The translations under genes and the position numbers were made by a program. From positions 1 to 64,000 of the forward strand of contig JARSSH010000021.1 of the NCBI GenBank assembly GCA_029624815.1: DNA of 64,000 bases, given 5' to 3'. The notes under the pieces were generated by a model, which did no database searches, had not been told where the DNA came from, and saw only the letters and a program-made list of their open reading frames with translations. Shown piece after piece: positions 27,918 through 60,932 of this stretch. How positions within the stretch are numbered: position 1 is the stretch's first letter; the number at the start of each line of letters is the position of its first letter. The stretch comes from Candidatus Competibacter sp. (lineage in GTDB: Bacteria > Pseudomonadota > Gammaproteobacteria > Competibacterales > Competibacteraceae).

Positions 27918-27993
27918 GGGGCCATAGCTCAGCTGGGAGAGCGCCTGCATGGCATGCAGGAGGTCGGCGGTTCGATCCCGCCTGGCTCCACCA
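27918..27993 (+). tRNA. tRNA-Ala (GGC)
   Basis: A complete 76-nt cloverleaf. The acceptor arm ggggcca pairs with tggctcc, the anticodon stem cctgc/gcagg encloses the loop atggcat, and the T arm carries ggttcgatccc. The encoded 3' end is acca. The anticodon is ggc, reading GCC/GCU alanine codons. Confidence 0.97.
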
Positions 27994-28035
27994 TCATTAT
28001 CCGCCACATCTTTCATCGGCGGCTGCTTTTTATCT

Positions 28036-28111
28036 GTCCCCATCGTCTAGAGGCCAAGGACACCGCCCTTTCACGGCGGTAACAGGGGTTCGAATCCCCT
28101 TGGGGACGCCA
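28036..28111 (+). tRNA. tRNA-Glu (TTC)
   Basis: A complete 76-nt cloverleaf. The acceptor gtcccca pairs with tggggac, the anticodon stem ccgcc/ggcgg encloses ctttcac, and the T arm is ggggttcgaatcccc. The encoded 3' end is gcca. The anticodon ttc reads GAA/GAG. It lies 43 bp after tRNA-Ala and is probably cotranscribed with it. Confidence 0.97.
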
Positions 28112-41337: not shown

Positions 41338-41392
41338 CGGTGGCGGAGACCGCGATTTGCCGCCATTCCCTCGCAACGTTAAGCTATATGCA

Positions 41393-41573
41393 GGACGGTT
41401 CCCCCTCGGGGGATTAATAGGGAACGCGGACGCACCGGCGCAGCCGGGCGCAGCCGCGGCTGTTCCCGCAACTGTGAGCGGCAAGCCGACGTTCGAACAA
41501 GGCCACTGGGCAACTGGGAAGGCCGAACGCCCGGCGACGACCCGCCAGCCAGGAGACCTGCCGTCTCAGTATC
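41393..41573 (+). ncRNA. Cobalamin riboswitch
   Basis: The conserved elements occur in order: ggacggttcc with ggattaatagggaa at the start, cgcggctgttcccgcaactg (41455-41474), the gccactgggcaactgggaag segment near 41502, and the 3' box agccaggagacctgcc near 41547-41562. This matches the B12-sensing aptamer as known upstream of btuB. It should repress the downstream uptake operon when adenosylcobalamin is plentiful. A further hairpin, ccgccgaa/ttcggcgg at 41580-41603, lies just downstream and may belong to the expression platform. Confidence 0.95.
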
Positions 41574-41579
41574 GCCTGG

Positions 41580-59811: not shown

Positions 59812-59889
59812 ATCCACCGTCCCGTTGGAAAATCAGCACGGCTAGTTTAGCGTGGACGACCCCGGCATACAGCATTCACCGGGATTCTC

Positions 59890-60215
59890 CGCGAGAGCCC
59901 CCGGCGTGAACGCCGGGGAGGGCGTGCGGACGGCGCGGCGGTCCCCCTCGCGGGGACTGTTTAAGCACCGCTCTTTTCGGTAGCATCACGCCTGTCTCCT
60001 ATTAAGACCTACCGCCGGGCTGGCGGGATGTGAAGTCCGTGGAGAGGTGTCAGACCTGTGGGGGTATGCGGTTGAGTGCGGAACACTCGTAAAACCCCCT
60101 CCGGGGGGAATTGCGAAAACCAGGCTCGGTACTCCCATGGGCAACCTCGTCGAAGCAGAAAACCCTGATTGTGAAGTCAGGAATCCCCGTCCTTCAGGGC
60201 GGGGAGAATGTCAAC
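59890..60215 (+). mobile_element. tnpB-less IS200/IS605-like relic with an omega-RNA-like 3' end
   Basis: This gene-free stretch is dense in foldbacks: cccccggcg-tgaa-cgccgggg (near 59896), gtccccctcgcggggac (near 59942), gagtg/cactc (near 60074), accccctccggggggaatt (near 60094) and, last, ccccgtccttcagggcgggg followed by agaatgtcaa (60186-60215). The last hairpin and its tail resemble the right end of IS605-family elements, where TnpB guide RNAs (omega RNAs) end just before the guide. No transposase or full TnpB frame is present; residual tnpB 3' coding may be included. It ends about 100 bp before the gmk start. The assignment rests on pattern memory and RNA-like structure. Confidence 0.6.
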
Positions 60216-60317
60216 CCCAGGCACGCCAAGCAAGCGCCTGGTTCGCCCCGCTTGCGCCCCCGAGGCCGGCTCCGAACGATGCGCCAGTTTTTACGGTCCA
60301 AAGTTGACAAGCTTGAA

Positions 60318-60932
60318 ATGAACGCCGGAACCCTGTACATCGTCGCCGCCCCTTCCGGAGCGGGTAAAACCAGCTTGGTCAAGAGCCTGGTGGAAACCAC
60401 GCCGGATATCGCCGTCTCGGTTTCCCATACCACCCGGCCCCTCCGTCCCGGCGAGCGCGATGGCGCGCACTACCACTTCGTGTCTCCCGACGTCTTTGCG
60501 CGGATGAGCGCCGAGGACGCGTTTCTGGAACAAGCTCAGGTGTTTGGCCACCGCTACGGCACCAGCCGCGCCGCCGTATTGTCTCTACTGGAGACCGGGC
60601 GGGATATCGTTCTGGAAATCGACTGGCAGGGCGCCCGCCAAGTGCGGGCGCTGTTGCCGGACAGCGCGACGATTTTCATTCTGCCGCCTTCCCGGCAAGC
60701 CCTGCGCGAGCGTCTCGCGGGGCGCGGCCAGGATGGCCCCGAAGTCATCGAGCGACGCATGGCGGCGGCACTGAACGAACTGTCGCACTACGCCGAATTC
60801 GATTATCTAGTGGTTAACGACCAATTCGCGGTAGCGCTGGACGCGCTGCGCGCCATCGTGATCGCCAACCGCCAACGCCGGGCGGCGCAACTGGAGCGGC
60901 AGCGAGAACTGCTTCAGTCGCTATTGTCTTAA
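60318..60932 (+). CDS. gmk: Guanylate kinase
   Basis: Guanylate kinase phosphorylates GMP to GDP. The ATG at 60318 gives MNAGTLYIVAAPSGAGKTSL with the P-loop; the frame stays open upstream into the IS relic, but that part has no family similarity. SVSHTTRPLRPGERDGAHYHFV binds GMP, and IDWQGARQVRALLP follows. It has 204 residues. It heads the gmk-rpoZ-spoT group; its promoter may lie inside or next to the relic. Confidence 0.96.
   Translation: MNAGTLYIVAAPSGAGKTSLVKSLVETTPDIAVSVSHTTRPLRPGERDGAHYHFVSPDVFARMSAEDAFLEQAQVFGHRYGTSRAAVLSLLETGRDIVLEIDWQGARQVRALLPDSATIFILPPSRQALRERLAGRGQDGPEVIERRMAAALNELSHYAEFDYLVVNDQFAVALDALRAIVIANRQRRAAQLERQRELLQSLLS

Follow-up and report, generated by a model that had tools for sequence, protein, structure and literature searches.

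Does the run of foldbacks directly upstream of gmk in a Candidatus Competibacter genome represent the stray end of an insertion sequence, or a mobile element in its own right that carries a guide RNA? The locus lies in what we call the window, a stretch of 64,000 nucleotides (assembly GCA_029624815.1, contig JARSSH010000021.1, positions 1 to 64,000 of the forward strand). An initial annotation, made from the letters of this stretch, had described foldbacks closed by a 9-bp stem with one wobble pair plus agaatgtcaa, about 100 bp before the gmk ATG, and had read them as an orphan IS605-like right end with an omega-RNA-like fold. Our analysis suggests that the locus is probably a guide-RNA element—a left end, a long-form omega-RNA and a right end—that is moved and used in trans by the TnpA and TnpB of other elements.

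A whole element with copies in the genome

The foldbacks are present as they had been described: the terminal hairpin comprises 8-9 bp with one wobble (approximately 60184-60205) and is followed by agaatgtcaa (60205-60214), with 103 bp to the gmk ATG. The right end is thus real, but it is no orphan; both ends are there, the left-end hairpin falling inside the very interval that had been singled out, whose start at 59890 is 10 bp within the element (true left border, 59880). We found no recognisable gene in the element (Table 1).

Table 1. Features of the element and its surroundings, in window coordinates
Feature	Position	Strand	Basis or remark
Left target site and expected TnpB TAM, TTCAC	59875..59879	+	TTCAT in three empty relatives; TAM role predicted
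Complete ORF-less IS200/IS605-type element, 335 bp (putative)	59880..60214	+	5 near-full genomic copies, relatives in six other genomes
Left guide tetranucleotide GAGC	59895..59898	+	The four remaining near-full own copies read GAGA; IS608-like pairing rule
Left-end hairpin (CCCCGGCGT / ACGCCGGGG)	59899..59918	+	Sequence inspection
Putative omega-RNA scaffold core, long form, 153 nt	60006..60158	+	R1 match of 131 bits, not independent, as the window copy belongs to A1, the training alignment of R1; compensatory changes across relatives
Hairpin CCTGA..TCAGG, 3' part of the RNA	60163..60181	+	RNA fold; seen in most related copies
Right guide tetranucleotide GAAT	60181..60184	+	Identical to IS608 GR
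Right-end hairpin, one wobble pair	60185..60204	+	Sequence and fold
Right cleavage site TCAA, last bases of the element, where the scaffold is expected to end	60211..60214	+	Identical to IS608 CR
Flanking DNA in guide-segment position (gmk leader)	60215..60234	+	Position only; inferred from known TnpB omega-RNAs
gmk, guanylate kinase	60318..60932	+	Protein match

The initial annotation had proposed looking for copies in the same genome and its relatives, in particular next to tnpB, and copies do exist in both. Searching the window genome (3.6 Mb in 70 contigs) returned 12 matches, corresponding to the window copy, four near-full copies (92-98% identity), one split copy (2 matches), and five end fragments. 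All five near-full copies, the window copy included (92-100% identity), have sharp borders in common and unrelated flanks. Full-length relatives, 71-85% identical, occur in six other genomes (G030, G038, G035, G013, G012, and G025), and 20 of the 39 family genomes have some match to the element, many of them to an end only. Because the same unit recurs five times nearly full length, with sharp borders in unrelated flanks, and is found again in relatives, we regard it as a real mobile unit, and by its sequence as a whole ORF-less, non-autonomous element of IS200/IS605 type (PATE/MITE). Another own copy (L006, on contig C33 of the window genome, G000) is interrupted by approximately 150 bp of a different palindromic sequence.

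End signals and the proteins that could act on them

At the right end, GAAT stands directly before the hairpin and the element closes with TCAA; both the guide and the cleavage sequence are those given for IS608 in PMC5934647. These IS608-type signals, together with the genomic copies, bear out the IS605-like character assigned to this end. The left border reads TCAT in 17 of the 22 copies that could be read by our pattern (four further rows were unreadable by it), and TTCAT in 12 of the 22. For the left guide, GANA is expected from the IS608 pairing rule, two pairs of which are set out in PMC5934647. Four of the five near-full own copies carry GAGA, and the window copy departs with GAGC.

Autonomous relatives with the same ends were recovered in two genomes, one encoding divergent tnpA and tnpB genes (G010, L127) and the other tnpB only (G030, L128). 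In the window genome, Y1 transposase genes occur at three loci and are split at one of these; their products share 32-43% identity with the TnpA of G010 across the portions that align. Window-type elements are probably mobilised in trans by a Y1 TnpA that reads TTCAT/TCAA ends. A Y1 transposase frame lies in the window itself, near the contig start (50-502, minus strand; 34% identical to the G010 TnpA), and no similarity to the window element was seen nearby. Among related copies, seven in G012 and G030 (L146-L152) have a larger right-end hairpin, into which a further, GC-rich hairpin has been inserted. In plasmids and phages, BLAST gave partial matches only, mostly to the common right-end hairpin, with 21% of the query covered at the best plasmid place and 11% in one phage record.

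The nuclease noted as missing from the window is indeed absent there, and beyond it the window genome assembly yielded tnpB debris and no intact tnpB in searches with PF07282 and with the G030 TnpB. The only PF07282 match is a remnant on contig C30; two more pieces came from the G030 TnpB search, an N-terminal stub that contains a stop (C16) and the final 32 codons (C10). Two contigs, C13 and C29, start within right ends, so that an assembly gap may conceal an intact tnpB.

A TnpB omega-RNA scaffold in short and long forms

A covariance model of the element RNA (R1), built from 17 sequences that match it by construction and with E-values that are rough, also finds tnpB 3' ends outside its training set: 16 matches lie on the tnpB strand at 0-65 bp from the PF07282 domain, and at least one more tnpB-end match (L161) exists beyond these. 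The omega-RNA-like fold proposed at the outset is thereby strengthened, and we identify the central 153-nt RNA, on the grounds of this homology, as a TnpB omega-RNA scaffold. In several copies one can still read a frame whose sequence approximates GLAGCEVCGEDVRPGG and resembles the TnpB C-terminus.

Two forms of this RNA can be told apart—a short form of 84-95 nt at tnpB genes, and a long form, found in the window element and its relatives, in which the stretch between GAGAGG and CCTC is approximately 60 nt longer. We defined the long form as a match of at least 125 nt, a rule that admits a few decayed matches (for example, L207 in G017, and L217), and scored up to 75 candidates per genome in Competibacteraceae and up to 150 in a second family, f116. 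None of the 80 long-form matches (54 in Competibacteraceae and 26 in f116) lies within 500 bp of a PF07282 domain; the short form does so in 16 of 45 cases in Competibacteraceae, and neither the nine shorter fragments nor the sole short f116 match does. Likewise, a TnpB HMM detected no frame at any of 60 long-form loci, which represent 56 distinct places and include one 101-nt match, versus 28 of 29 control loci (12 of them in the training set), with flanks of approximately 1.5 kb, less at contig ends. At the level of whole genomes, PF07282 is present in 11 of the 12 family genomes with the long form, the exception being G017, versus 12 of the 27 without it (39 genomes, Fisher p 0.006), several of the matches, including that of the window genome, being remnants. 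In f116, PF07282 matches occur in all three genomes with the long form and not in the one without. An exact long-form pattern was found in 0 of 398 genomes of the phylum; the window genome's own copies also miss this pattern, so that it is no gauge of absence.

Structural constraint on the long form

We assessed constraint on an alignment of 29 long-form sequences (A2), from which we omitted weak or cut matches, copies nearly identical to others, and L148, L150, and L152, which contain a 25-nt insertion. An earlier alignment (A1) was judged to misplace one hairpin, and A2 was used instead. We also considered that the first GGGG strand might pair with ACUCCCC, but set this aside for the pairing with the later strand, which RNAalifold favors on A2 as well and to which the counts below refer.

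On A2, 95.8% of cells form standard pairs, a percentage biased upward because A2 itself served to derive the structure and one helix was placed manually, and 17 of the 35 pairs have changed on both sides. No shuffle out of 500 reached either value, and slid versions of the structure gave 37-53% pairs and 3-9 double-changed pairs. The double changes are the stronger point for RNA constraint than the pair percentage. In eight representative IS605-type copies, identity is 80.6% in the RNA core, 74.1% in the left-internal part, 77.1% at the left end, and 87.0% at the right end; the core is thus only moderately more conserved than the left-internal part and less so than the right end, so that the case for selection on the RNA rests mainly on the compensatory changes. 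These could partly predate the loss of tnpB.

The long form in other vehicles, families, and viruses

With R1 at a threshold of 1e-8 and stricter filters, eight of 369 genomes of the class gave a match: three Competibacteraceae, one of them the window genome; three members of f116, which have long forms; and G058 and G303, with matches of 67-89 nt.

The same long RNA is carried by a 266-bp ORF-less element with other ends (GGGTTGACAGC...GCAACGG), which has ten equal-scoring matches in G012, four of them with inspected borders, and is also found in G013, G026, and G028. One element of the 266-bp kind in G028 (L243) contains the short form. The right end of the 266-bp element closely resembles the one at which tnpB elements of G026, G013, and G012 terminate, and GG occurs at both borders in the four inspected G012 copies. 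IS607 elements recombine at GG, according to PMC10711439, and by their GG borders we classify the 266-bp elements as IS607-like. In G012, the element occupies L188:2940-3207 and nine more places. Three copies are 99.6-100% identical to L188, and the G012 element has therefore probably been active recently. In the G012 element, the RNA is immediately preceded by a promoter-consensus match (TTGACT-17-AAGAAT); a promoter scan of L224 gave no site.

In G268 (L224-L262), a member of the second bacterial family, f116, we found 18 long-form matches, and the four that were inspected differ again in their ends (TAATCGAC...GGAGAACGG, the first bases showing one variation). Three of the 18 are spaced 795 bp apart on contig C11. 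Long-form RNA also occurs in two viral contigs (L285 and L286), one of which measures 113,978 bp. In both, the RNA (at 5400-5830 in L285) lies between KilA-N-like and portal-like frames (named from the L285 translations), and the TnpB HMM detected nothing in the 7.1 and 5.7 kb around the viral copies. Pattern scans of viral sequences returned the same two contigs in two scans and none in a third. These copies raise the question of whether phages use the TnpB of their hosts.

All of these elements might instead be inert deletion relics—ordinary PATEs whose RNA part is a functionless leftover of the tnpB 3' end, conserved through recent origin from tnpB elements. We consider this the most serious competitor, if an unlikely one: formation of PATEs by core deletion is known (PMC3119063 and PMC7290912), a tnpB-like frame is visible in many copies, and sequence identity is just slightly higher in the RNA core than elsewhere. 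On the other hand, no parent of the long form was found, as none of its 80 matches was beside tnpB, it is common to elements with unrelated ends, and the compensatory changes run through the part specific to it (helices 5-7).

Probable consequences of the insertion at gmk

The gmk proteins of the window genome and of Candidatus Competibacter phosphatis share 90% identity, and we take the host to be related to that species. Three genomes of the same genus (G002, G004, and G005) have both flanks before gmk with no element between them; the C. phosphatis record gives the same matches as G002 at identical coordinates, and G003 matched the left flank only. At the left border, the three empty relatives read TTCAT where the window genome reads TTCAC, which fits the expected target. 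The right flank carries a deletion, and the site is accordingly not precise: beside the right end, the window genome is without some 50-60 bp found in the relatives, including a block (CTTTGATCC...TTCATGACAT.ATCCC) kept in all three even where G005 has otherwise diverged. Given this lost sequence, the left site TTCAC, and a genome with tnpB debris only, the window copy is probably stranded in this strain.

The block was likely the old gmk promoter. If so, the insertion with its deletion would have removed a conserved promoter-like block, and because of this removal the start of gmk transcription probably lies inside the element or farther upstream. A promoter scan gave no full sigma-70 match in a relative's gmk region, conserved block included, and no match to the sigma-70 promoter consensus within the window element. 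The earlier proposal that the element supplied or replaced the gmk promoter therefore stands only in part, with the absence of the conserved block in its favor and the scan against it. A stronger version, in which the element has been domesticated and kept as promoter or 5' leader of gmk, strikes us as rather improbable; an element does sit where the block is missing, but other copies lie elsewhere in the genome, the element contains no promoter consensus, and an insertion known from one genome shows no selection. What the gmk case does present is a mobile guide-RNA element in place of the probable promoter of an essential gene.

Folding and comparison with RNA families

The RNA fold of 60000-60215 is better than all of 200 dinucleotide shuffles (z -3.30). 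The single-stranded DNA fold of 59880-60230 is ordinary (z -0.39; equalled by 34 of 100 shuffles), and foldback density alone is for this reason no argument. The two values bear on the idea that the fold serves only as single-stranded DNA for recognition by TnpA, although the RNA value refers to the shorter interval. IS200/IS605 TnpA does read terminal hairpins in single-stranded DNA (PMC5934647), but the constrained core is internal and matches tnpB omega-RNAs, and it recurs in the IS607-like elements, whereas IS607 transposases use double-stranded DNA (PMC10711439); we judge this explanation very unlikely.

At the Rfam gathering score, neither the window element nor eight related loci gave a match. 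Relaxed cut-offs brought up sot0042 (E 0.0005) and HgcC (E 0.004), both far under their gathering scores and useful as leads only; we take them to be archaeal RNAs linked to IS605-type elements. HEARO was absent among the Rfam matches to the window element listed up to E 10. The covariance-model comparison suggested by the initial annotation thus yielded sub-threshold relatives and no HEARO from Rfam, and our own model was the one to reach tnpB ends. That the RNA belongs to IscB/IsrB (HEARO) rather than TnpB is scarcely credible: the kind of element is reportedly similar, but HEARO is missing from the matches listed and R1 matches tnpB 3' ends on the tnpB strand. Elsewhere in the window are a cobalamin riboswitch (41380-41579, plus strand; 101 bits, Rfam) and adjoining tRNA-Ala(ggc) and tRNA-Glu(ttc) genes (27918-28111, plus strand).

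A possible life cycle in trans

In the current view, TnpB cleaves donor sites left empty and so promotes the survival of its transposon. For a guide-RNA element that depends on the proteins of others, the following cycle can be envisaged: a Y1 transposase that recognises TTCAT/TCAA ends would move the element; the element RNA, read out into the right flank, would load in trans into a TnpB; and the loaded TnpB would cut the empty donor site, helping the element to be copied back. We regard such trans use as the most likely purpose of the conserved RNA. More tentatively, and with somewhat less than even confidence, we suggest that the long-form RNA, shaped for action in trans and traveling in IS605-type, IS607-like, and viral vehicles, defines a protein-free class of mobile guide RNAs, which would either live as hyperparasites on the transposases and TnpB of other elements or redirect TnpB to their own flanks. 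Guide-RNA-only elements would exploit TnpB without paying for the protein, which makes the use of omega-RNA in trans directly testable; if the long form is better suited to such use, it also offers a natural set of variants for TnpB tools.

Relation to known systems

We searched the literature at the level of listed titles and the opening lines of abstracts, subscription papers and preprints lying outside the scope, and did not find guide RNAs kept by tnpB-free elements, or a long tnpB-free form, described. The portions consulted of PMC7290912, PMC5934647, PMC10711439, PMC3119063, and PMC5896051 describe no guide RNAs kept by tnpB-free elements, and a term search of PMC12558985 gave nothing on the subject.

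The scaffold shares with the TnpB omega-RNAs (reRNAs) of IS200/IS605 and IS607 elements its homology to the tnpB 3' ends of the same family, its end at the element border, and a flank in guide position; it differs in that the long form lies away from tnpB and has an inner part approximately 60 nt larger than the tnpB-linked form. In Ktedonobacter, standalone IscB omega-RNAs are said to be guide RNA loci without a nuclease gene that presumably act in trans. They would have the missing nuclease gene in common with the window element, and would differ in belonging to IscB rather than TnpB and reportedly in carrying the guide at the other end of the RNA. QMITE of Coxiella, a bacterial MITE that gives rise to small RNAs (PMC5896051), is likewise a protein-free mobile repeat; it yields transcripts, and the accessible part of its description mentions no omega-RNA.

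A further parallel is with the PATEs of Haloquadratum and Halanaerobium, which, like the window element, are ORF-less, of IS605 type, and equipped with near-terminal palindromes; the Halanaerobium PATE retains, besides a right end of 160 nt, the final 58 nt of tnpB and 28 nt from the left end (PMC7290912 and PMC3119063). Unlike these, the window element has a structured long-form omega-RNA that is kept across genera and end types, and the portions of the PATE accounts available to us are without guide RNAs. PATEs as such are already known; the window element is best described, as far as its sequence can tell, as a PATE that carries a TnpB omega-RNA scaffold and would work like a guide-RNA-only TnpB transposon.
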